A DNA stretch of 64,000 bases from positions 11,051,001-11,115,000 of the forward strand of contig BSYQ01000001.1 of NCBI GenBank assembly GCA_030272585.1. Reading direction: 5' to 3'. The position numbers were made by a program, and so were the translations under genes. The stretch comes from Bryopsis sp. KO-2023. Taxonomy: Eukaryota; Chlorophyta; Ulvophyceae; Bryopsidales; Bryopsidaceae. Every line of letters begins with the position of its first letter. Position 1 is the stretch's first letter. This document shows, one piece after another, positions 1,086 to 63,200 of this stretch. The notes under the pieces are model-generated. The model searched no databases. It worked only from the letters and a program-made list of their open reading frames with translations, and was not told where the DNA came from.

Positions 1086-3407
1086 ATGGCTCTCACCGCC
1101 CCCTTGACCATTGGAGTCGCTCCTGCCACCCGCGTGCAGGGTAGGCGCATCCCTCAGAGGGCCAGAGCTGTCCGCGCTACCCGCATGGCCAACCTCTCCG
1201 GCTCCGCCAGCGTGTTCGACGCCGCAACCGTTCGCGGACGTCGCTCCGCCGACAGGGCCTCCCGCATGGTCGTGTCCATGGCAAAGAAGTCCGTTGGTAA
1301 CCTTACCGAGGGCGACTTGAAGGGAAAGAAGGTGTTCGTGCGTGCTGATCTGAACGTGCCCCTCGATGGAAGCGATATCACTGACGACACCCGAATCAGG
1401 GCTGCCGTCCCAACTCTGAAGTACCTTTTGGACAACGGCGCCAAGGTCCTCCTGACCTCTCACTTGGTGCGTATCTTTGATCTGGCCCAGGGAGACTTTT
1501 TCGTCGCGCCGAGTTGCTTTTCCGTGCTTGTAACGTTTCTAGATCCGTTGTCATTGACGCGCCCGTATTGAACAGACCGCAGTTTCTGTATGTTGCCCAG
1601 CCGTTTTGAATATCTGCGAGTGTCGTAACAGGGTCGCCCAAAGGACGGACCCGAGGACAAGTTCAGGTTGAACCCTGTCGTGCCCCGTCTTTCCGAGCTC
1701 CTCGGAAAGCCCGTCCAGAAGGTCGACGACTGCATTGGTGACGCTGTCTCCACCGCTGTCGACAGCATGGGCGACGGCGAGGTAAACCTGCGTTTCAGCT
1801 CTATCGCTGCCTCTGGAGTGGTTGCGTCCTGCGTTGAGATCTTACTGAGATCGGATTTCGTGATATGTTGCAGCTCCTTCTCTTGGAGAATGTCAGGTTC
1901 TACAAGGAGGAGACCAAGAACGAGGCTGGATTTGCTGAGAAAGTGCGTTAAGCCAATTTGCAGCAATTTAGATACAGAAATCAAAGCACAGTGCCAAGAA
2001 GTCTTTAACAGGCGACACACTTCTAAAGAAAGGAAGGCATTTCGATGATTTATTTGCACTTTAATCTCTGTACTTCAGTGGCTGCTGAATCAGTGTGGGG
2101 ATAGAACCCATTTCAACACACCTGACATGAGCTGCACTGGTCGTTGATTTTCTGTTCGTTTTTTTTTTCGTCTCAGTTGGCGTCCAATGCTGAGCTCTTC
2201 GTGAACGATGCTTTCGGAACTGCTCACCGCGCCCACGCCTCCACCGAGGGAGTGACCAAATTCCTGAAACCCTGCGTTTCTGGATTCCTCCTCCAGAAGG
2301 AGTTGGACTACCTTGATGGAGCCGTCACCACCCCAGTCACTCCTTTCTGTGCCATTGTTGGAGGATCCAAGGTCTCCAGCAAGATCACTGTTATCGAAGC
2401 TCTTTTGGACAAGGTCCAGAAGATCGTCATCGGGTAGTTATACTCCCCCAGCTGACTGACTCACCAATATTCTAGCAAAAAGTTTGACAGACTAACCAAT
2501 ATTCTAGCACGAGGTGTAGCATATTGGATTTTTTTTGAGGAGGAGGATGGTTGATTATCAGTGTGTGGTGTTTAGAGGTGGAATGATCTTCACCTTCTAC
2601 AAGGCCCGTGGCCTGAATGTTGGTTCCTCCCTTGTCGAGGAGGACAAACTGGAGCTTGCCAAGGAGCTTGAGGAGAAGGCCAAGGCCAAGGGTGTTGAGC
2701 TGATTTTGCCAACTGATGTCATCGTTGCTGACAAATTCGCTGCGGATGCCGAGGCCAAGGTCGTGTCTGTGGATGCTATCCCAGATGGCTGGATGGTAAG
2801 TGCTTCGGCTGCAGGGGGTGTCGTTGTGGTGGTGTTTGCAAGGCTAGGAGCTGTGTGAAGAATAGGGTGGCTGAATCAGCGTGTTCCAATTCCAACATAG
2901 GGTTTGGATATTGGACCAGAATCCACCAAGATGATCCAGGAGGCTCTCAGCGACTGCAAGACCATCGTCTGGAACGGACCCATGGGTGTGTTCGAGTTCG
3001 AGAAGTTTGCCGCTGGAACCTTGGTAAGTTTCATGCACCCTCTTAACTACCCGGGCTGGCATTTACCTCTAGATGGTGGCTGTTAAACAAGTGCTTTAAA
3101 CATGGTGGCTGTAAAGCATGGTGGCTGTAAAACAAGTGCTTTAAACAGAACAAGTGCTTCTGGGAATGTAGGACAGTGGGGTTCAAACTGAGACGATTGG
3201 TGGTGTTGATAGGGTGTGGCCACCACTTTGGCTGAGTTGACCGGAAAGGGTGCCACCACCATCATCGGTGGAGGAGACTCTGTTGCTGCTGTTGAGCAGG
3301 CAGGACTTGGTGACAAGATGAGCCACATCTCCACTGGAGGTGGTGCCTCTTTGGAGCTCTTGGAAGGAAAGGTTCTTCCTGGAGTTGCTGCTTTGGATGA
3401 GGCTTAA
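1086..3407 (+). CDS. PGK: Phosphoglycerate kinase, plastid-targeted
   Basis: Calvin-cycle and glycolytic enzyme that transfers phosphate between 3-phosphoglycerate and ATP in the plastid stroma. Seven exons (1086-1466, 1632-1781, 1874-1942, 2177-2433, 2576-2795, 2901-3023, 3213-3407) join in frame to 464 residues. The start is the ATG at 1086 in context gcaaagATGgct. The first 60 or so residues are Ala/Arg/Ser-rich without a hydrophobic signal peptide, a typical primary-plastid transit peptide. The mature part shows the hallmark N-domain motif [42 protein letters not shown], the lysine motif VGGSKVSSK, and C-domain [11 protein letters not shown] and the nucleotide site GGGDSVAA, ending [10 protein letters not shown] as in plant plastid PGKs. 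Length matches the family. All introns are GT-AG. Identification is secure; strong plant similarity argues for the green lineage. Confidence 0.96.
3073..3158 (+). repeat. Local tandem repeats inside PGK intron 6
   Basis: The segment atggtggctgt occurs three times (3073, 3102, 3118), and acaagtgctttaaac occurs twice with a third partial copy. The units are nearly identical, so this is a recent small duplication confined to the intron. The splice sites at 3024 and 3212 are outside it. Confidence 0.75.
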
Positions 3408-4274: not shown

Positions 4275-7200
4275 ATGAGAGTTTCGACTGTGGTTAGAGC
4301 GTTCCTTCTTCTCGCATACGTGGTGGTGGCAGGGTATTACTTCTACAAGCGAAGCCAAGACTCGCTAGACGTCCACTGGCTGTCATATGGTCGTTTCATT
4401 ATATTTCTCGAAGTGCTCGTAGCATCAGTCGTTGTGCTATATGGGATTACTTTAACGAGAAGGGTAAAAATCCGTGGTGCGAAAGACCCTGTGGTTGGGA
4501 TAGAAACCGTCCGAGTGTTGATTCCCTGCTCCCGGGAGCCTTTCGAGCTGGTTGAAGCCTCTGTACTTGCTGCGTTGTCGGCAGCCGTCCCGACAACTAT
4601 TTCGAAGCATGTATATTTGCTGGATGACTTACCGGACGAGCGAAGAAGGGTGTGGGTGCAGAGCATGACTGGAGCTACCCGAGGTTGTCTGCACTATCGA
4701 ACCCGTACCCCCGGGGCAAATGAAACGAACCACAGGTCGTGCAACCTGAACGCGTCCCTGCAGCTTTTGTATGGAGATTTGGGTTCGGACGTTGGGAGGG
4801 GAGCGTGTGCTTCTGAACTCGTGGCTGTATTGGATGCGGACCAAGTTTGCAACGCAGACTTTTTCACAAAGACTTTGGAAGCTATGGGGGATGCTGCTAT
4901 GCTGGTTACCCCTCGACGAGCGCATAATGTCCATGTCGAGCAGGACGCCTTCACCCACAGCAACGTCCAGTGGTATGAGTACGTCCTCTCGGGAATGAGC
5001 GCTTGGGGCAGCGTGAACTGCTCCAATACCAACTTCCTGGTCAAAGCTGACGTTCTCAGGGCGGTCGGTTACTTTCGTGAAGAAGAATTGGGAGAATTTG
5101 GCCTGTCAGTCGAACTGAGCAGGCGTGGATACAGGAGCAAGTATATGCAGGAATATCTGACAACAGGAGAGGCGCCTGAAAAGCCAGGGAGCATTCTCAG
5201 AGAGCACAGTACATGGTATTAAACAGAAACACATCTGTCCAGTTCTGCACACTGCTTGTACTTCTTGCACCCAAATTTTTCAAACTGACACATTGGTTTG
5301 GTTTCTGTGTTTCAGGGTCAAGGCGCACTTGCAGATTTTCTTCGGGAAAGCAAACCCAATACTGGCAAAGGGACTTCCTCTGCGTGCCAAGTTCTTCTAC
5401 AGCATTACGAACTGGTCATTCTTGGTCACAGCCTTCACGACTCCCTTCTTTATTATCATCCCGCTCTTGACTTTGTGGTATGGAATCTACCCACTCGATG
5501 TCACCAGAGAGTTTGCCACAGTCTTGGTCACCTACTACTCAACCCTCATATTGACGGTCTACTTTTCGGACAACTACCGTCACACCTACCAATTCTGGCT
5601 GGGCTGGGTTCAAAACCATATCTACTGGTACACATACTTGAAGGCGATTTTTAGCGTGATTCTGTCAAAGATGGCTGGGAAGCAATTGACGTACAAGCCG
5701 ACAAATAAGACTGGGAAAGGATTGTCGACCCAAGCACACAGCCTGTCGATGAATGTGAACGCTCGCGACCCCACCGAGAATCCCTTCTCAGTCGATGGGG
5801 CGATCGCTGGAAGAAGTAAGTCATAAGGGGGGGGGGGAAACCAACCCAATGTTTTGTCCTTTCTTTTTCTCTGGTGGAGCAACATGTCTTGAGGGTGTGA
5901 AATTTCAGTTTTTTTACATGTGACCTATTCATCCCCACCACTTGCGTATTGTGCTGATGAAAATACCAGACCAGAAACAAAGTGCCATTGTTCAAAAATT
6001 GTCCCCCTTAAGTTCTGAATGTTTCAAGTTCCAGAGTTCCCGAAGGTGCAATTTTCGCTGTCATTTTTGTATCCATAATTTCTGCGATGTAAATCGACAG
6101 AAAAACTGAATTTTGGTGGTCTTCTTCTCATGGTATAATTCTTGTTGTGTGTCTGATAGGGGCGGCAGGCCGTAACGCTGCAAACAAAACACCACGGGGG
6201 GACAATGATGTCGACTGTGGTGCCTCCAGACTTTTTTGTGATTTCTGGGGAAGTGGCACAGACGTTTTTGTGCTTTTGGCAGTTCTATTACTCTCTGGGG
6301 GAACAGCAATTGTGGGGGGGTTCTGGATGATTGGACAAGTTTGGACGGATTGGAAAGTTGTGCAAATGGTCAGCGTGTTGTGGTGCCTGCAAAACGCAGT
6401 GCCACCCTACATCTTTTTTCATTACCTTCTGTTCAGGAGAAGAGGTCTTGACAAGGCTGCTTGGATTGGGTCGGTCGTCGTGCTAGCGGCCACAGTCGTG
6501 TCTTTTGTTATTTTGATTCTTTATAGCAGAAAAACTTACGATTATGGAGAAGTTCTCGACATGTCCATGTTATACTTCGAAGCCCAGAGGTCAGGAGTGT
6601 TGCCTCCTGATAATAGAATACCTTGGCGGGGGGACTCTGGATTGCTGGACAAAACTGAGGATGGACGTTCCTTGGTGGGGGGCTACTACGATGCAGGTGA
6701 TACTATCAAGTTCGGCCTCCCAATGGCCACCAGCATATCGCTTCTGGCATGGGGACTGCTGGAGTTTCCGAAAGGATACACGGACATTCCGCGAGTGCAT
6801 GACACACTGAAATGGGGAACCGATTATTTTATAAAATGCCACACGGCGCCGAATGAGTTTTACGCTCAAGTTGGGACTGGGACCGGCGAACACAAGATCT
6901 GGATGCCACCAGAAGAAATGTTGAAGGATTGGGAAAGGATTGGTTTCAAACTGAATGAAACTCGACCAGGGTCGGATGTTGTTGGCTCCACGGCTGCAGC
7001 CCTGGCTGCGACCTCGATGGTTTTCAAGAAACACGACCCAATGTACTCTGCAGAACTGTTACAGCATGCCAGGGAGCTGTACGACTTTGGGAACGGCTTC
7101 AGAGGGAAATATTCCGACATCATTCCAGACGCTAAAAAGTTTTACCCTTCGACCAACTTCGAGGATGATTTGGCTTGGGGAGCGATTTGGCTGTATGAAG

Positions 7201-7958
7201 CGACAAGGGAAAAGAGGTATCTCGATGAAGCTAAGGGTCACATCGACGATCTCTTGAGGCCTATAGAATCGGAAAACAGGAACCCCTCGTCGACGTTCGA
7301 CTGGGACAGTGTCAGTCAGGGAGCCAGTTTGTTGATTTACCGTGAAACCAATGACAAGAAGTACATGACTGTGATCGATCGTCACATCGATACTTGGATG
7401 AATGATATCGAGAGGACCCCAAGGGGGCTGGTGTGGCCAGCACAAGCGGGGGTGTTGAGGCAGGTGGCCAACACAGCTTTGATTTTCCTTGTCTATGCTA
7501 AAAATGAGAGGGCGAGGGGGGTACCCCTCCGTGTGCGTGGGATACATGAATGTTGGGCTCGTGAACAGATCTTATACATGCTGGGGGAGGGAGGCAGGAG
7601 CTTCGTGGTTGGATATGGACGCAACCCGCCAAAGAGGGTTCACCACCGAGGAGCGACTTGCCCTCAGCTGCCGGCCTCCTGTGGGTGGGGGACCTACCGG
7701 AGCGATGAGCCTAACCACAACATCCTGGTCGGTGGGCTGGTTGGCGGTCCTGCCAAGAACGATGTGTATTTCGACGACCGGAGAATGATAAAACAGAGCG
7801 AGGTGGCGATTGATTATAATGCAGGGTTCGCAGGTGTGCTGGCCGCACTCAGGGAACTGGAACGGTCGACAGGATTTGGCAAGTGTTTGCAGGGAATTGG
7901 AATGTCGACTAGATTTAGAGTCGTGGGCAGTACTGGGCGGCACGCCAAGAAAACATAA
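4275..7958 (+). CDS. Cellulose-synthase-like GT2 fused to GH9 endoglucanase
   Basis: Predicted membrane glucan synthase-like protein with an extracellular cellulase. Exons 4275-5215, 5316-5815 and 6160-7958 join in frame to 1079 residues. Residues 1-60 hold two membrane helices. Residues about 75-325 are a GT2 domain aligning with bacterial BcsA/plant CesA: LLDD at 115-118, DxD as D187-A-D189, and CSNTNF near 249-254. Helices 3-4 lie in exon 2, but three further helices lie in exon 3 (about 515-605), directly before a GH9 domain (about 607-1050). So the GT2 membrane region is split across the junction and needs exon 3 to be complete, which supports one gene. GH9 keeps GGYYDAGD (D658, D661), HHRGATCP (about 975) and DDRRMIKQSE (D1019/1020, acid E1028). 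Two GT motifs are altered: TED reads LGE and QxxRW reads EHSTW, so synthase activity is uncertain. Positive-inside topology puts GT2 in the cytosol and GH9 outside, as in KORRIGAN. Confidence 0.85.
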
Positions 7959-49222: not shown

Positions 49223-50830
49223 TCAAGCTAGTTTGCTATGCAAAGCACCATGCCCATTGAGATAAGCAGCGGCTGGACCGGTCAAATCCTCCAGCACTTG
49301 GAACTTGCTAACCACCTTCGATCCTTGCACCTGCATGCCTAAATTCTCCATTTCCGTTGACACACCCGGTACATTGCTCAGCAAGAAGATCGACTTCACC
49401 CCAATGTCATGGAGGATCTGGACAGAAACTGCATGGTGCTCTGGAGTCTCACACTTTTTTGTGTGACCCTCCATCTTTTCCCCCAATTGTTGCAGGCCTT
49501 CCAAGACTGACTGGGACTTGCTGGCATTTCCAACCGCATATATCACCACCCCCCGATCCTGACGTTCAACCCATCTCATAGCAGAAGCCAATTCCGAGGA
49601 CAGCGCATCATTGAGATAATCTGCTGAATGAATGTGGACCGGCACGCTCTCCCCGTTCTTGACATCCCCAGCAACAAACGCGATATACTCTGACCCGTCA
49701 AAGGTGGACTTATAGGAACAAGCCTCAAATTTCCCAAACTCCGTTTTCACATCCATCGTCCCAGTCTTCTCCACGATGGTGTCATGCTTGAGTCTGTACT
49801 TGATCAAATCTGCGATCGTGATACATTTCAGTCCATATCGTTTGGCAAATTCCAGCAACTGGGGGGTCCTGGCCATGCTTCCATCCTCTTTGTTCACGAT
49901 TTCACACAGCACCCCAGCTGGATGGCACCCAGCCAGTCTCGACAAGTCAACCGCAGCTTCAGTATGACCCGCCCGGACGACAGTCCCTCCAGATTGATAT
50001 CTTAATGGGAAAATATGCCCAGGTCGCCGGAAATCAGATGCAAACGATCGGGGGTCCGATAGCCTCTTGATCGTTCGACTCCGATCCTCGGCTGAGATCC
50101 CTGTGGTGATCCCCTCCGCCAAATCCACAGTCACAGTGAATGCTGTTCGCATGGCTTCCTTGTTGTCCAAGGAATCCACCATTAGGGGCAACTCCAGCCT
50201 ATCTAGATCTTCCCCCTCCATGGCGATGCAAATCACACCACTGGTGTATTCAACCATGAAGGCCATCGACTCGGTGGTGATTTTATCCCCAGCAATGATT
50301 AGGTCCCCCTCATTTTCCCGATCTTCGTCATCCAACACCACCACGAATTTCCCAGCTGCAATGTCCTCCAAAGCTTCTGGTATCGTGTGAAATTGGGGGA
50401 GAGCAGCCTCAGCTGTGTCGCTTTCCGTCGAGTCCCCGTTGTTGGTTGCCCACACAGGTATCAGAAAATTCTTTCTGCCATTCTGGCTCCAAGACGACGC
50501 GAATTGCCTGTGAGGATTCCCCCTGAACCCTTTTAGCGAGTTGGGTGCGCTCGGGAACGCTTCGCTCCTGGCGCTGGTGCTAGCGTCGGAGCTTCTCGGG
50601 TGGAGAACGGACGACGCGTGGCGTAACGCGCCGACAAAGCGCGTGTGGCAATTGAGCGCGACCGGTCGTTCCATCGAAAACGGGGCTAAAAAAACACCTT
50701 TTCGAGTCAGTGCGCAGCTCGAAAGAGCTCTTTCGTGCAACGCAAGGGAAGTACTGGAAATCAATACGGAAACGGAGCGAAAAAAAAAGGTGCGCTGGAA
50801 TGGCCAAATCCCAACATCATCATGCCTCAT
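49223..50830 (-). CDS. RIBA-like protein: intact DHBP synthase, degenerate GTP cyclohydrolase II
   Basis: Intronless reading frame of 535 residues for the riboflavin pathway. Residues about 1-125 are a plastid-type leader; Met53 is an alternative start. Residues about 147-346 are 3,4-dihydroxy-2-butanone 4-phosphate synthase with key motifs DDEDRENEGD (167-176), TGISAEDRS (243-251), RRPGHIFPL and RAGHTEAAVDL, so ribulose 5-phosphate conversion should be intact. The C-terminal GTP cyclohydrolase II domain (about 365-515) keeps the fold outline (VPVHIHS, QILHDIGVKSIFLLSN) but lacks the three zinc cysteines. The catalytic segment normally reading QEGRGIGL is replaced by YAVGNASKS (431-439). It is therefore probably monofunctional, like the plant RIBA paralogues reported to have lost one activity. 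No frameshift is seen, so this is divergence, not a pseudogene. A separate active GTP cyclohydrolase II would be needed. Confidence 0.92.
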   Translation of the reverse strand: MRHDDVGIWPFQRTFFFRSVSVLISSTSLALHERALSSCALTRKGVFLAPFSMERPVALNCHTRFVGALRHASSVLHPRSSDASTSARSEAFPSAPNSLKGFRGNPHRQFASSWSQNGRKNFLIPVWATNNGDSTESDTAEAALPQFHTIPEALEDIAAGKFVVVLDDEDRENEGDLIIAGDKITTESMAFMVEYTSGVICIAMEGEDLDRLELPLMVDSLDNKEAMRTAFTVTVDLAEGITTGISAEDRSRTIKRLSDPRSFASDFRRPGHIFPLRYQSGGTVVRAGHTEAAVDLSRLAGCHPAGVLCEIVNKEDGSMARTPQLLEFAKRYGLKCITIADLIKYRLKHDTIVEKTGTMDVKTEFGKFEACSYKSTFDGSEYIAFVAGDVKNGESVPVHIHSADYLNDALSSELASAMRWVERQDRGVVIYAVGNASKSQSVLEGLQQLGEKMEGHTKKCETPEHHAVSVQILHDIGVKSIFLLSNVPGVSTEMENLGMQVQGSKVVSKFQVLEDLTGPAAAYLNGHGALHSKLA

Positions 50831-51293
50831 GCAGCATGAGTCATGCTCATCGTTGCATCAGTCGTACGAACCTAACAAAGTGTGAGCGGGAGGTGCGAAT
50901 CACAACTTCGCTTCTCAAGAAGCCCCAGGCGGGGTTTTCAACCGAGAATTTCTCGGCTTGTTTTGCTTTCAAGCTGCCCTTCATGACTTCCACGTGCTTT
51001 TTCTTTTCTTTTTTCCCCACTCCCGGTGGGGTTTTCCCCCACATCGGAAACATCCCGAGAGGCCGTGGGGTGCTTCGTTCCAGAAAAAGCGAGAAAACAC
51101 GAGTCAGGAAGTACGGTACGATGAGGTATGACTGGCACAAGGCTGCACCACGCAGTTTTGCCAGAGCGCGTTTTTCATCGCGTGGTTCGCGCCAGCAGCC
51201 CTCTTTCGAGAGGTGCTTTGAGCAGTTACGCAACGCTTCTTTTTTTTCTTCTCTGAGACGAGGGAAAAGGGGAAAAAAAAAAGGGAACCCAAA
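50831..51293. promoter_or_regulatory. Divergent promoter region, RIBA-like and cyclin genes
   Basis: 463 bases separate the start codons of the RIBA-like gene (minus) and the cyclin gene (plus). Open reading on both strands here shows no recognisable protein. No TATA box identified. Confidence 0.4.
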
Positions 51294-56962: not shown

Positions 56963-57499
56963 CCTCCCCCGTAAAACACCGTGCCTGTGTATCCTCTCCC
57001 TTTCCACAACAAAAAAATAACCGAGCGACTGACTTGGAAGCTCCTGTCCGGCTGGGCCTCGGGTGTCTTATGTTCTCTTTTTTTTCACTTTGCGTCGACC
57101 GTACGGAGCTCGGGTGGCGACATGCAAAAGTGTTGAAAATGTGGCGACTCACCAAATGGAAGGGTGGGTGATCCATGGGGGGGCAAGTGGGAATGGCGAA
57201 TGGCCGTCGGTTCCCCTGGGGTGATGCGATTCTGGCATTCAGATTATGGCACGTTTTCCTGGCCGAAAAAAAAGAAAAACGCAAACCAGGATGACGTCAC
57301 GCTACGTTTTCTCCCACGTGGCACAAAATTCAGACGGAATTCCACAAAGCTACAAGAAGGCCACCACCCCACCCTCGATCCCACTGTTAACCGTTCCGCT
57401 GTTAACGTGAGTGGCACTCAGTCGCACTTTTTTCTCTCGTTTCAAGAACGCTTGCATCTGTGAACTCCTCAGCGTGAATGCACAGCGGGTTCGGGCTTG
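56963..57499. other. Divergent intergenic region, quasi-RRM and kinase genes
   Basis: 537 bases between the start codons of the quasi-RRM gene (minus) and the receptor-like kinase gene (plus). It must contain both promoters. No specific element was recognised. Confidence 0.45.
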
Positions 57500-59596
57500 A
57501 TGTGGTGTGTGACCCCATCATGGCTCTCACCACCCACCTTGTCGCAGAAACTTGCCGCGGTAGTTTTTCTCCTCTCGGTTTGGCACTCCACTGCAATATT
57601 GCTGGACGAAGATATTGTTACCACGGTCCCTACGACCCCCTTTCCGACGAACACTGTCCGTTGTCCTGGGGGATACTGGACAGTTGCAGTCACTACTTTT
57701 GGGGTTGATAGGGGATCTTTTGGTAAGGCTCGTTCAAGGAATGGGGGTGGCGTCCAGGCCTACTTTCCTTTCGAAGGGAAGGAGAGGATGGACGCGCAGT
57801 CGATGGATCTGCTGCAATTGCCCTCCGTCGACACTCGTGACTATCGCTGGGTGGATATTTCGGAATATTTCAGGAAAAAGCACGTGTATAAGCCCGTGAG
57901 CAAAAACGACAAGTCGCCCTTTGCGTACTATCACCCTGGGGACGGTGGGAATTGGCAGGTCGGGAAAATAGACCTCGTCCGGAACGTAGGAAGTTACACG
58001 GTAGCTGGAGAGATGTTCGAAGTCACGCCCGGAGCAGTGGAGAAAGGAAAGATCCTCGTGGTGTCGTTCAAAGAGTACGTCTCGACCGAATGCGGCAAGT
58101 CGTCGTCCGCTTCCGTTGTTGGAATTCTCACGTTAATCGCTCGAAGTTTTACCCTGTTTGATGTTGACAAAGGCCCCGTTCTCCTTGACAGGCTCACTGC
58201 TGTTTGTTTTGTTGGTGTTGTTTACACAAAACTGTTCGTACCTGTGCATGGATCCCCTGACCTGAGGTTTGATAATCAGAGTGTGAGTGTTGATGGAGCA
58301 GTGTGGTGGTGTAGGGATGCATATGCCTACTGGAAGAAGATAATTTTGTTGGTCGTCACCATGATGTTGAACATTGTAGCTTTCTCTCTACTTGTGCCCT
58401 TCTTCCGCAGAGGCAACAGGGGTCATTCATTTTTGTCAAATTCTCCACTTCGGGCAGCTGGGGCCAGTGCGCCCCAGCAAGGGGTTCCACGTCAGACAGG
58501 GTCGCATCGGGAGATTAATAATCCTATTAACGTCATAGAGCAAAAACCTAAAAACAAAGAAAATGAGAAAATGATGGAAAAAAACGAAAAAAGAAAGTGT
58601 TGTGCGGGTTCATCAAGTTTAAAAAAAGAGAAAGATAACACAGAAGGGGTTGGGGACGTGAATTTGAACGTGAAATTGATGGACAGTGTGATCGGGGTGG
58701 GGGGGTTTGGGGCGGTGGAAACAGGGATTTGGGAAGACCAAAAGGTCGCTGTTAAATTTGTAAATCCCATGTCCGGCCATGATGCGGTTTCCACGATTTT
58801 GCACGAATTGGACGTGCTGCAGAGAATCCCGGACCATGCAAATGTTGTCAAGTGTTATGGCCGGTGCATGGATGAGAAGAAAAGGGTTGGGCTGGTGGAG
58901 GAGCTCATGGACATGAGCCTGGATGATTGGGTGCATGGGGAAGGGTTCAGAGCAAGGACACCATTGAAAGCGTTGCTGGACGTATTCATCGGCATCGCAA
59001 ACGGCCTGGAGCATCTGCACAAGTGCAAAATCGTGCACTACGATTTGAAGCCCAGGAACGTTCTTTTGGACAAGGGCTTGATCGCCAAGGTGGCCGATTT
59101 TGGGTGTTCGAGAATCAAGGCGAATTCGTACATCACTGCGGGGCTGGCGGGGACGGTTCCATACCTGGCACCTGAATGTGTGTTGTCGGTGTACTGCAAT
59201 CTGAAGGGCCGAGTGAGAGCTGAGAAGATCGATGTGTTTTCTTTTGGGGTGGTTATGTGGGAGGCTTTGATGGGTTCGACTCCGGGCATTCCAGGGGACA
59301 ATCTGGGTTTTGAGAGTGATTTCACCCCTGCGAGTGCTAGCGCATGCACGAATAGCAAGACGGAGTCTATTAGTAATGCAGCCTGGAGCTCCACAAGCAC
59401 AGAACGATTGAATAATTGTCTGTCGGCAAAGTTTCCAATCAGCTCGGGCTGCCCTGTGGAGCTGAGGGATTTGGTTTCCAGTTGCATGAGTGTGGACAAT
59501 AGGTCCAGACCTAAATGTACAGAAGTCCGACGGAATTTGGAAAAAATGAGGTCGGCACCATGGGCATCGAGGACGGTTTCCCAAGTAATGGGCTAG
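57500..59596 (+). CDS. Receptor-like protein kinase, non-RD, intronless
   Basis: Single-pass membrane kinase of the plant RLK/TKL type. One exon, 698 residues, ATG at 57500. An N-terminal hydrophobic signal (AAVVFLLSV) is followed by about 240 residues of likely extracellular sequence with no domain I recognise. One membrane helix (LLVVTMMLNIVAFSLLVPFF) lies at about 280-302 and is followed by a basic, Lys/Glu-rich juxtamembrane stretch. The kinase domain (about 390-690) has the Gly loop GVGGFGAVETG (about 397), VAVK with Lys419, HYDLKPRNVLL (His513-Asp515), DFG at 533-535 and APE. The catalytic loop reads HYD instead of HRD, so it is a non-RD kinase, a feature common in innate-immunity receptors; catalytic residues are otherwise kept. 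A Ser/Thr-rich insert lies near 600-640. Lack of introns stands out next to neighbours with up to 14 exons. Confidence 0.88.
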   Translation: MWCVTPSWLSPPTLSQKLAAVVFLLSVWHSTAILLDEDIVTTVPTTPFPTNTVRCPGGYWTVAVTTFGVDRGSFGKARSRNGGGVQAYFPFEGKERMDAQSMDLLQLPSVDTRDYRWVDISEYFRKKHVYKPVSKNDKSPFAYYHPGDGGNWQVGKIDLVRNVGSYTVAGEMFEVTPGAVEKGKILVVSFKEYVSTECGKSSSASVVGILTLIARSFTLFDVDKGPVLLDRLTAVCFVGVVYTKLFVPVHGSPDLRFDNQSVSVDGAVWWCRDAYAYWKKIILLVVTMMLNIVAFSLLVPFFRRGNRGHSFLSNSPLRAAGASAPQQGVPRQTGSHREINNPINVIEQKPKNKENEKMMEKNEKRKCCAGSSSLKKEKDNTEGVGDVNLNVKLMDSVIGVGGFGAVETGIWEDQKVAVKFVNPMSGHDAVSTILHELDVLQRIPDHANVVKCYGRCMDEKKRVGLVEELMDMSLDDWVHGEGFRARTPLKALLDVFIGIANGLEHLHKCKIVHYDLKPRNVLLDKGLIAKVADFGCSRIKANSYITAGLAGTVPYLAPECVLSVYCNLKGRVRAEKIDVFSFGVVMWEALMGSTPGIPGDNLGFESDFTPASASACTNSKTESISNAAWSSTSTERLNNCLSAKFPISSGCPVELRDLVSSCMSVDNRSRPKCTEVRRNLEKMRSAPWASRTVSQVMG

Positions 59597-60231
59597 GGTG
59601 TGTTTGTTTCACATATTTGTGACATGATTTGCATTATTTTGTTTTGGTTGCTGTTTTTGTTGGGATAAATTCGGCTTTTTTTCTTTTAATTTTGAGGCAG
59701 GGATGCTGGCGGTAGCCCATGGGACGGACATACTTGCATTTGTTTGGGGGGAATAATGCCCTGCGATTGGATTTTCTTTTGAGAATGCAGGGGCACAGGT
59801 TCAACATTGTTTTTTCTCAATATTTTACTGATTGGGGGTTGTAGGAGTAAAAGAAAGAGCAACAAAAAGGATTGTAAAATGTTACACGTGAATTGGGTGT
59901 TTCTGTCATCATTCTGGTGTGGCTTTTCTCTGGACAAATAAAAGCAATGGGGTTTGAACAAAGTATGTGCAGGTACAGTGCCGCCCTTGCACAAAACGTT
60001 TTCAAATGAGCTTAGTTTGGATGGTTGAACTACAGAAGGAGTAACCCCCTCACACTTTCCCCCACCAACAGGCGTGGAGTTGATACGAAAGATGTACGCG
60101 CCAGAAATCACGAGACGTACTTTTTATCCAGTGCCAGAAATTACTCACCCGCTCTGTTTGAACCCACCGCCCGAAACCCAGCAAACTCCACCACTGGGCG
60201 TGTTCGCAAGCGAAGAAGCGAGAGATTCACG
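59597..60231. other. Intergenic between kinase and importin-9
   Basis: About 635 bases. The left half is probably the kinase 3' UTR and the right half the importin-9 promoter and 5' UTR. No coding exon was seen. Confidence 0.5.
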
Positions 60232-63200
60232 ATGGACATCGGGCAGTTGGTGACATGTTTGGCTGGATCTCTCGATAGCGACGTCGACGTTCAGAAAGCA
60301 GCGGAATCTCGCTTAGAGTCGGTTAAAAATACTCCTGGCTATGGTGTCGCGTTGGTGAAAGTCGTTCTGGCGAAAGAAATACCCGAAGGAACGCGACATC
60401 TCGCGGCGGTGTTGCTCAAGCAAGACGTCAAGCGCCACTGGCAGGATGAAGCTCCGTTTGTTAACGATGCTGACAAAAGGACCATCAGAGAACTTCTGGC
60501 TCAAGCTCTGTCCGACCCCTCCTCGAAACTTCGAACAGCGGTTGGCGTGGCAATCGCGACAATCGCTGGTTTCGACTGGCCAGAGAACTGGCCTCATCTC
60601 CTGGGTGTTCTTACGACCGCCATCAAGGAGAGGAAGGACCCCAACCTCGGTAAGATGCCTGCAAGAATTTCCACCCCCGCGATAGTGTCGCGTGTACGGG
60701 TTGTCTCAGACGACTATTGGTTCAATTGTCTGGAGCCGAACAAATTTTTTTCCTTCGGATTCCGTTGCAGTGCAAGGAGCTCTGCGGTGCCTTTCGATGT
60801 TCGCCTCGGACATCGATGACCAGCAACTCGCAACGGTGAGTTTTTCGGGGGGTTTACTACTTTACATGCATTTTCGGTATGTCTGCGCGCGCAAAGCAGA
60901 CTTCCTGTCGGCTGTTTTCCAGCAACCCGAACCCCCTCACCCTCCCTTCAACTCTAGTTTTCTGCTCCTTGCTGCAAACCAACCTAGAGGTTCACTTTTT
61001 GTTTTAGTAAGCGTACGTGTTGTTTTTCTTGACACGGGATTCCAACCGAAATTGCTCTTGCCTGCTGCCATTCTCCAGCAAGGCCAATCACATGTAATTT
61101 GGATTTTTTCATTTTTCATTTCTTCGCAGGTCCTTCCTGTGCTGTTGCCAGAGTTGCGAATCATAGCCAGTTTGGGTGGAAACGATGAAGAGCAAATGAA
61201 GAGGCGGTCGATTTCCATAGTCTACGGTTTCTTGCAGAGCTTGGCTGTCATGTCTGGAATTTACCCTCAGGAAACTCAAGCACTCATCGAGCCACATGTT
61301 GGAAGTTGGATGGAGGTGTTTCTTTCCATACTGACGGCCCCAATCACGCTCAAGGTGGAGATTTTTTTTTACTGCGACATTGCTGGCACATGATTCGAGT
61401 CAAATACAGATGCCACCAGCTGCAAATGAATCCAACAACAATGTTGAAATATCGAAAGCAGAATTGTGTGTTTTTTTGCGTGTCCAGGATATGGACCATT
61501 GGGGGGTGGTCATTGAAACGGTGAAATGCACCATTCAATTTCTGGTGAATTTTCCCAAGCTGATGAGCAGTTACACCGAACTGATCATGAAGAGTGCCTG
61601 CAGTTTGTTGCTCAGCAGCTTCCCCATGTTCTCAAGCGAAATCATCAGTCAAGAAGTGGAGGATGCTGAGTTCGATTCAGATGGGGATAATACTGACCTC
61701 CAGACCCTGGTGTCACAGGTAGGTGCCACACATTCACAAGGTTTTTTTGCTAGAGTTTATTACTTTCTTTTGTGATCGATGGAGTGGCTTGCTGTTGCGT
61801 TCTGTTTTCTGGCATCCATACAGTTTATTTATGTGTTTTTCTTTGCTGCAGATTTTTGAGTTGGTTCAGACGCTTATCGGCAAGCGATATGCGTGTGCGT
61901 TCAAATCCAGCGTCCCCGATCTGATGTACTTGACCATCGGCTACATGCAAATGACAGAAACTCAGGTCGGCACATGGATGTCAGACCCGAATCAATATTT
62001 GGCTTCCGAATCGGAGGAGCTCTTCACTGCTCGAGTGTCTGGGGAAGTTTTGATCAATGCAATGGTGGAGGTGAGAGAATGAAAAGCTGGTCTGAGTCTT
62101 GTCCACATGAGAACTGCTCTGTGAAAATTAAGGGATGTTCAGATTCAGATTTTCTTGTCGTCAATCTGTGTGCAACGTCGAGGACATATATATCGTGTTG
62201 TGGGAAAAAAAAAATGGAGAAGAATTATTAAGGGGACTGGGAATCTGCTGCATTTTGAAAATGGGATCTTATTTTGGAGATCGTTGTTTTCAGACTTATG
62301 AAGGGGATGGCATCACTGCCTTGATGGGGGCGATTGAGCGCCACATGCAAGAATCTTTCGTAGCAAAATCACAAGGTATTGCTCTTTCCCCTCTTCGCCT
62401 GTTGTGAACAGAGCATTTTTTTCTCTTAACAACATTAAAGAAATTAATAATGATTTTTTATTTTTGTAGAAATGCATGCAGGGAGAGTGTTTGTTCTAAC
62501 ACAGCCCAAAGAAGGGCATTGGACCTAGGAACAATATCTGAACTTTTCCGGACTTGATTTTCCAGGGAAATCAGACTGGTGGAAATGCCGAGAGGCAGCT
62601 ATTGCATGCATCGGGCATATATCGGATAGCTTCGGCGAATTCGATGGCGACGGCAGCCATCCAAAATTCAATGCTGCTGGGATTCTGGACACTCTGTTCA
62701 AAAATGATGTCGATGTGACTGATCCATGTCCATACTTGGTGGGGAGGGTGCTTTCCATCGTTGGCCAAATGGCGAATTTCGTTTCCACAAGTCAGGCCGA
62801 GGGTTTTGTCCGAGCAGCTGTCATTGGTGAGTGGAAAGTCGCTGTTGATGGGAGAAGGTGGCAGTTTTTGTAGGTTCTTTTTCTCATTTGGTCCGGAATT
62901 TTGCCAGAAAGGAGTGCAAAATTACAGAAAAAAGCAGAAAGAAAGAAGAAGGAAGTTTCAGGGGTGGAACCAATGGCGTGATTTTTTTTTGTCTAGGGCT
63001 GAAGAGTCCTAACCCTCCTCCTGTGAAGATTGGCTCCTGCATGGTAGTTTCCAATCTCTGCCCGCTGTTGAGTTCCGACAGACTGAAGACCATGCTGCCG
63101 GACATCTACGAATCCATGAAACATCTCATGGAGGAGTGCACAGAGGAAATGCTGAATTTAGTTTTGGAAACCCTGACTCAAATCATCAAGGTGCCATTTC

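Follow-up and report, generated by a model that had tools for sequence, protein, structure and literature searches.

A Bryopsis gene encoding a BcsA-type glycosyltransferase domain and a GH9 cellulase domain in one polypeptide

Gene structure and protein architecture

The window analyzed here, a stretch of 64,000 nucleotides from Bryopsis sp. KO-2023 (contig BSYQ01000001.1, positions 11,051,001 to 11,115,000), carries a forward-strand gene of three exons whose predicted product is a BcsA-type family 2 glycosyltransferase (GT2) with seven predicted membrane helices, followed by a complete family 9 glycoside hydrolase (GH9) domain (Table 1). Judged from the active-site letters, the cellulase half looks active, and the GT2 half is most likely not a synthase because its TED and QxxRW motifs are degenerate. 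The gene would therefore probably encode a KORRIGAN-like, membrane-embedded GH9 endo-beta-1,4-glucanase anchored by a BcsA-type GT2 that is most likely void of synthase activity.

Both introns have GT..AG borders, and the spliced frame of 3240 nt encodes 1079 aa and a stop codon, with no stop inside. Among six pairings tried for each intron, 5215/5316 is the only stop-free one for intron 1; for intron 2, 5815/6160 is in frame, and 5815/6169 and 5819/6101 are likewise open to the natural stop. The protein is identical at every residue to the public model BSKO_02324 at NCBI (P0058 in our set), in agreement with the preliminary description of three exons joining in frame into one polypeptide. The arrangement described there, with helices 3-4 before 5815, helices 5-7 after 6160 and a complete GH9 domain next, was also recovered by the predicted helices and the PF00759 match, and the GH9-bearing exon does complete the GT2 membrane domain, as transmembrane helices (TM) 5-7 lie in exon 3. 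The predicted open reading frame (ORF) of P0060 (57% identity over 52% of the query) starts in the exon-3 part too.

PF13632 matches residues 183-380 (33.5 bits against a cut-off of 27), with PF13641 and PF07470 matching below their cut-offs, and is followed in the same protein by PF00759, the combination that characterizes the chlorophyte GT2-GH9 fusion family. Two helices precede and five follow the catalytic fold; a synthase fold is predicted over the whole length, and synthase-like membrane helices combined with a GT2 fold are those of the BcsA/CesA type. The window protein matches neither PF03552 (plant-type CesA) nor a PilZ domain in Pfam, and an exon-by-exon search of the genome gave 0 matches to PF03552.

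An assembly or gene-model artefact fusing two neighboring genes is extremely improbable. A join made in assembly is very unlikely because three paralogues in the same genome share the architecture, each with an uninterrupted frame from TM3 to GH9 (801, 758, and 831 aa) and no second intron. Moreover, 24 of the 57 matches to the paralogue L018 carry PF00759 together with a GT2 Pfam domain, and the fused P0164 is a complete ORF labelled TRINITY, i.e., an assembled transcript. An assembly join was thus rejected on the paralogues, the public model, and the relatives, and the fused architecture does occur in other genomes.

Table 1. Features of the GT2-GH9 fusion gene (positions in the window; aa, residues of the 1079-aa protein).
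Feature	Position	Strand	Remarks
Exon 1	4275..5215	+	start codon, TM1, TM2, GT2 catalytic fold up to QxxRW position; matches BSKO_02324
TM1	4278-4361	+	predicted helix, exon 1
TM2	4380-4454	+	predicted helix, exon 1
GT2 DxD motif (DADQ)	4833..4844	+	intact; motif alignment
TED position	5088..5105	+	reads LGEFGL; one residue deleted, Glu replaces Asp (GEF)
QxxRW position	5202..5316	+	reads EHSTW; Gln to Glu, Arg to Thr; split by intron 1
Intron 1	5216..5315	+	phase 2, within Trp codon of QxxRW position; site common to three paralogues
Exon 2	5316..5815	+	TM3, TM4, further helix, gating-loop position
TM3	5380-5481 (aa 336-369)	+	predicted helix, exon 2
TM4	5506-5562 (aa 378-396)	+	predicted helix, exon 2
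Further helix	5578-5676 (aa 402-434)	+	predicted, probably interfacial, exon 2
Gating-loop position	5692-5709	+	exon 2
Intron 2	5816..6159	+	window copy only, among four Bryopsis paralogues
Exon 3	6160..7958	+	linker end, TM5-7, GH9, stop codon
TM5	6258-6329 (aa 514-537)	+	predicted helix, exon 3
TM6	6348-6434 (aa 544-572)	+	predicted helix, exon 3
TM7	6447-6524 (aa 577-602)	+	predicted helix, exon 3
GH9 domain, PF00759	6543..7841 (aa 609-1041)	+	complete; profile 1-444 of 444, 438.2 bits
GH9 DAGD motif	6690..6701	+	intact; motif alignment
GH9 SEVAIDYNAGF	7797..7829	+	intact; motif alignment

Membrane topology

With the helix at residues 402-434 placed at the interface, where it presumably takes the position of the interface helix of CesA, the GT2 fold would lie inside and GH9 outside, facing the wall directly beyond the membrane. 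The composition of this helix is not clearly distinct from that of the crossing helices (mean hydrophobicity 0.45 and moment 0.21, compared with 0.52 and 0.25 in TM4 and 0.44 and 0.12 in TM6). The counts of lysine plus arginine fit the topology: 5, 1, 11, and 3 in the predicted inner loops (residues 60-77, 396-403, the linker 435-513, and 571-578), and 0, 1, 0, and 2 in the predicted outer loops (29-36, 369-378, 537-544, and 602-609, the last before GH9). Synthesis inside coupled with hydrolysis outside had been proposed for this polypeptide; the seven helices and basic inner loops favor the topological part, whereas the coupling is not supported for the window protein with its degenerate GT2. 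It does fit L018, which keeps both sets of active-site letters.

Active-site letters of the two halves

The GH9 half has the full profile, the DAGD motif, which we take to hold the catalytic Asp pair, and SEVAIDYNAGF, whose Glu is presumably the acid; these are the features of a GH9 endoglucanase. The GT2 half departs from a processive cellulose synthase at TED and QxxRW, and both motifs are also degenerate in an 84% relative. The motif alignment comprises 47 of the 57 L018 matches, P0059-P0062, and the four Bryopsis fusion proteins, leaving out 10 of the 14 bacterial-type matches (P0044-P0057). Of 56 otherwise invariant GT2 columns, 19 are changed in the window copy, and 18 of those 19 are changed in P0059 too. 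The two proteins differ at 43 of 375 sites in the GT2 half and 71 of 433 in GH9, with identities of 90% in the GT2 catalytic part and 84% in GH9. Because differences are fewer in the GT2 half and the altered columns are held in common, the degenerate half, as read from this one comparison, is not simply rotting. P0001 and P0059 have full-length, uninterrupted frames on short contigs (4191 and 4003 bases), whereas the ORFs of P0002, P0060, and P0062 start near an exon boundary on contigs of 9.8 to 20.4 kb, which suggests that the former two are transcripts.

It is improbable that the window protein is itself a working bifunctional enzyme, making beta-glucan inside and trimming it outside. DDL and DxD are kept, the predicted synthase fold spans the whole length, GH9 is intact, and several family members (L018, P0001, P0004, P0005, and P0006) keep both letter sets. 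However, TED has become GEF with a deletion, QxxRW has become EHSTW, 19 of the 56 columns named above are altered, and none of the 21 rows in the second group of fused relatives described below has lost the TED Asp or the Gln, Arg, or Trp of QxxRW.

Paralogues and other GH9 and GT2 genes in the genome

The Bryopsis genome contains four GT2-GH9 fusions, namely the window copy, L018, L019, and L020, with pairwise identities of 34-46%; a genome search with the GT2 half of L018 gave eight matches at four loci, both counts being lower bounds. Intron 1 lies at the same place and phase in all four. L018 (C1:11.147-11.151 Mb, 90 kb from the window copy) keeps all GT2 and GH9 letters. L019 keeps those of GH9, but its GT2 has lost the first Asp, the two Asp of DxD, and two QxxRW letters (Gln and Arg). 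L020 lacks the second Asp of DxD, the same two QxxRW letters, and the Glu of GH9, which is replaced by Arg, as it is in its relative P0062. By these letters, one of the four fusions keeps both halves, two (including the window copy) keep GH9 only, and one keeps neither.

The L018 GT2 matches TIGR03030 at 134 bits, far under the cut-off of 699, and all six matched PDB sequences are cellulose synthases. In Bryopsis, 1,3-beta-xylan with small amounts of cellulose is reported for gametophyte walls and mannan for sporophyte walls (PMC6419167, PMC7550628), so a polymer other than cellulose is conceivable. That the Bryopsis family makes 1,3-beta-xylan or 1,4-beta-mannan, the main polysaccharides of bryopsidalean walls, is nevertheless improbable, since the L018 GT2 is nearest to cellulose synthases and the fold of the GH9 domain is that of an endoglucanase whose active-site letters are intact. 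Four further PF13632 places were read by eye on contigs C2, C4, C5, and C6; therefore L018 is not necessarily the only synthase.

GH9 also occurs without GT2, in two KORRIGAN-like genes with one N-terminal helix each (L025, L026) and in L027, L028, and L029. Searching by tblastn with residues 1-630 of the four fusions found no GT2 remnants before L025 and L026: matches with E ≤4e-5 lay only at the query end, spanning the last helices and the GH9 start, and all others had E ≥0.25. Kazal-like cysteine-rich stretches were seen by eye upstream of L027 and L029 (contig C7), which makes a second type of GH9 arrangement in the genome; the GH9 of L028 (contig C11) resembles theirs.

Relatives and phylogeny

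Each protein search scored about 8000 candidates sharing most words, so the lists of relatives are partial. Of the 24 fused L018 matches mentioned above, those with names come from Myrmecia bisecta (2), Elliptochloris bilobata, Coccomyxa elongata (2), Chlorella sorokiniana, Trebouxia sp., Botryococcus (from the label Botrbrau1), and Symbiochloris irregularis, all of which we take to be Trebouxiophyceae. P0013 has an extra kinase domain and is probably a merged gene model.

The fused rows fall into two groups. In the group with Bryopsis (14 rows), which we infer to be ulvophyte, the GH9 Glu is kept in 12 and both Asp in 13, and the four GT2 letters are kept in five of the nine rows with readable GT2; P0001, P0004, P0005, and P0006 retain the letters of both halves. 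The second group (21 fused rows) keeps the TED and QxxRW letters throughout, and its GH9 has the acid Glu in 0 of 17 readable rows and both Asp in 2 of 21. Here, P0022, P0025, and P0032 stop short of the GH9 end, the Glu of P0023 is unreadable, and P0024 reads poorly and was counted as readable; P0164 is in no tree and was assigned to this group by its letters. A Glu to Arg change is seen in 11 of the 17 readable second-group rows as well as in L020 and P0062, yet the GH9 tree puts the latter two in the other clade; the change may have been repeated or retained.

The GT2 and GH9 trees were quick trees with SH-aLRT support only, and the GH9 tree included 9 of the 99 unfused GH9 matches (P0063-P0161). 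In the GT2 tree, 42 rows form a chlorophyte clade (support 99) composed of a Bryopsis clade of nine rows (96) and the remaining 33 rows (85), and the Ciona CesA stands just outside it, after P0040. The chlorophyte clade of the GH9 tree has 36 rows (99), including the two KORRIGAN-like rows and the unfused P0160, and splits into a group of 16 that contains L025 and L026 (100) and one of 20 that contains P0160 (84). Each half of the window protein falls in one chlorophyte clade, as befits a member of the family. The sisterhood of L019 and L020 in the GT2 tree (100) is distrusted, as their branches are very long and they are not sisters in the GH9 tree.

A clade of fused GH9s free of unfused ones was rejected (33 rows held together, p-AU 6.2e-5) because L025, L026, and P0160 fall inside. 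A narrower grouping, in which the Bryopsis-clade fusions (14 rows) were held together and the KORRIGAN-like rows kept out, was also rejected (p-AU 0.0255, for a group named after the tree was seen). Because the GH9s of L025 and L026 nest among fused ones, the free Bryopsis GH9 may have arisen via GT2 loss. P0160 joins the second-group GH9s at weak support and counts against a simple one-fusion account, as does the rejection of a fused-only clade. Of the 36 readable rows, 34 have 31 residues between the TM7 end and the GH9 motif, and P0008 and P0009 have 30; because the join has one length in nearly all rows, a single old GT2-GH9 fusion, either half of which may decay with the architecture retained, fits best. 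GH9 was likely lost in the trebouxiophyte rows without it (P0026-P0028, P0030, and P0031) because they nest within fused rows of the GT2 tree, unless their gene models are cut short.

The nesting of L025 and L026 also bears on the idea that only GH9 matters and that GT2 is a decaying passenger, a mere anchor on the way to a free single-helix GH9. This is unlikely. The exclusion of these two genes was rejected, as given above, and the window GT2 evolves relatively faster than intact GT2 (ratio to GH9 0.70 vs. 0.12), but its catalytic part is still closer to P0059 than GH9 is, and the spliced frame is stop-free.

Comparison with known systems

The preliminary description knew of no GT2-GH9 fusion in the green lineage. 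Blanc et al. (2012) report four from Coccomyxa subellipsoidea and found no algae with the synthase-like domain other than Coccomyxa, Chlorella variabilis, and Emiliania huxleyi (PMC3446292). The fusion as such is thus known since 2012, for Coccomyxa. The likeness lies in a tunicate-like GT2 and a GH9 in one protein, and by our trees the C. elongata proteins P0011 and P0012 are of the same family; in contrast to the window copy, these have GT2 letters intact and GH9 catalytic letters lost. In the open-licence literature searched, nothing was found on active sites lost in alternation, on such fusions in Bryopsis, or on a likely origin of free GH9 from fused genes; no publication of the KO-2023 nuclear genome appeared there either.

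KORRIGAN has one helix and no GT2. Like the window protein, it bears GH9 straight after a transmembrane helix, facing the wall, and is expected beside cellulose synthase; the window GH9 differs in sitting on a seven-helix synthase domain. Tunicate CesA, whose hydrolase domain is GH6, likewise joins a synthase and a glycoside hydrolase in one polypeptide, and the tunicate domain is described as distinct from type 9 (PMC3446292). The cellulase of bacterial BcsA, BcsZ, is described as a separate family-8 protein, whereas the cellulase is covalently joined in the window protein.

Proposed function

On balance, a KORRIGAN-like glucanase carried by a pseudo-synthase is the reading we favor. GH9 would face the wall directly outside the membrane, and the GT2 half, retaining the shape of a synthase, may seat the protein within or next to the complex that the intact paralogue L018 forms, and trimming would thereby be delivered where the glucan emerges. 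This seating is proposed by analogy with KOR1, which is reported to require its transmembrane domain for contact with CesA (PMC4226561). The window gene would be one member of an old chlorophyte family whose proteins can lose either catalytic half and still keep the two-domain architecture.

Several points weigh against this reading. The partnership with L018 is argued from shared descent and analogy. The loss of GT2 activity is read from motifs, with DDL and DxD retained, and where TED has its Asp, P0059 also shows an Asp. The conservation of the degenerate half is a single comparison, window copy vs. P0059, and partial decay would likewise make GT2 evolve relatively faster. If the helix at 402-434 crossed the membrane, GH9 would lie inside, and the seven N-glycosylation sequons, one of which (746) is in GH9, are uninformative on the side.

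More tentatively, and with rather less confidence than in the function of the window gene, an ancestral bifunctional synthase-cellulase in green algae may have split its labor repeatedly without splitting the polypeptide. One lineage would retain synthesis with a non-catalytic GH9, and Bryopsis one bifunctional copy with pseudo-synthases that bring a GH9, active or inactive, into a mixed synthase complex. The inactive halves would then serve the terminal complex as structural or glucan-guiding elements, and the trimming of cellulose would be integral to the synthase array, either in cis or via a neighboring subunit. The family bears on why cellulose-making systems need a cellulase, which bacteria and plants carry as a separate protein, and offers a ready-made comparison set of bifunctional (L018), cellulase-only (window copy, L019), synthase-only (second group), and neither (L020) proteins. 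If the dead halves are still needed, a structural role of the cellulase fold or the synthase fold in wall building would be indicated.

Other genes in the window

Directly upstream of the fusion gene, a multi-exon phosphoglycerate kinase gene with a plastid-type leader was recognized by eye (1086-3407, +). A gene start with a signal-peptide-like leader lies from 9219 onward (+), with a weak match, below the cut-off, to the Fn3-like domain of purple acid phosphatase. Farther along, DHBP synthase and GTP cyclohydrolase II share one frame (49226-50857, -), a RibBA-type riboflavin gene. At 57464-59593 (+), a possible membrane helix followed by a protein kinase domain was seen by eye, and the N-terminal part of this frame has an above-cut-off match to MFP2b, a 'cytosolic motility protein' of what is presumably a nematode family. 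Finally, an Importin-beta N-terminal domain at 60016-60816 (+) probably represents only exon 1 of a larger gene.
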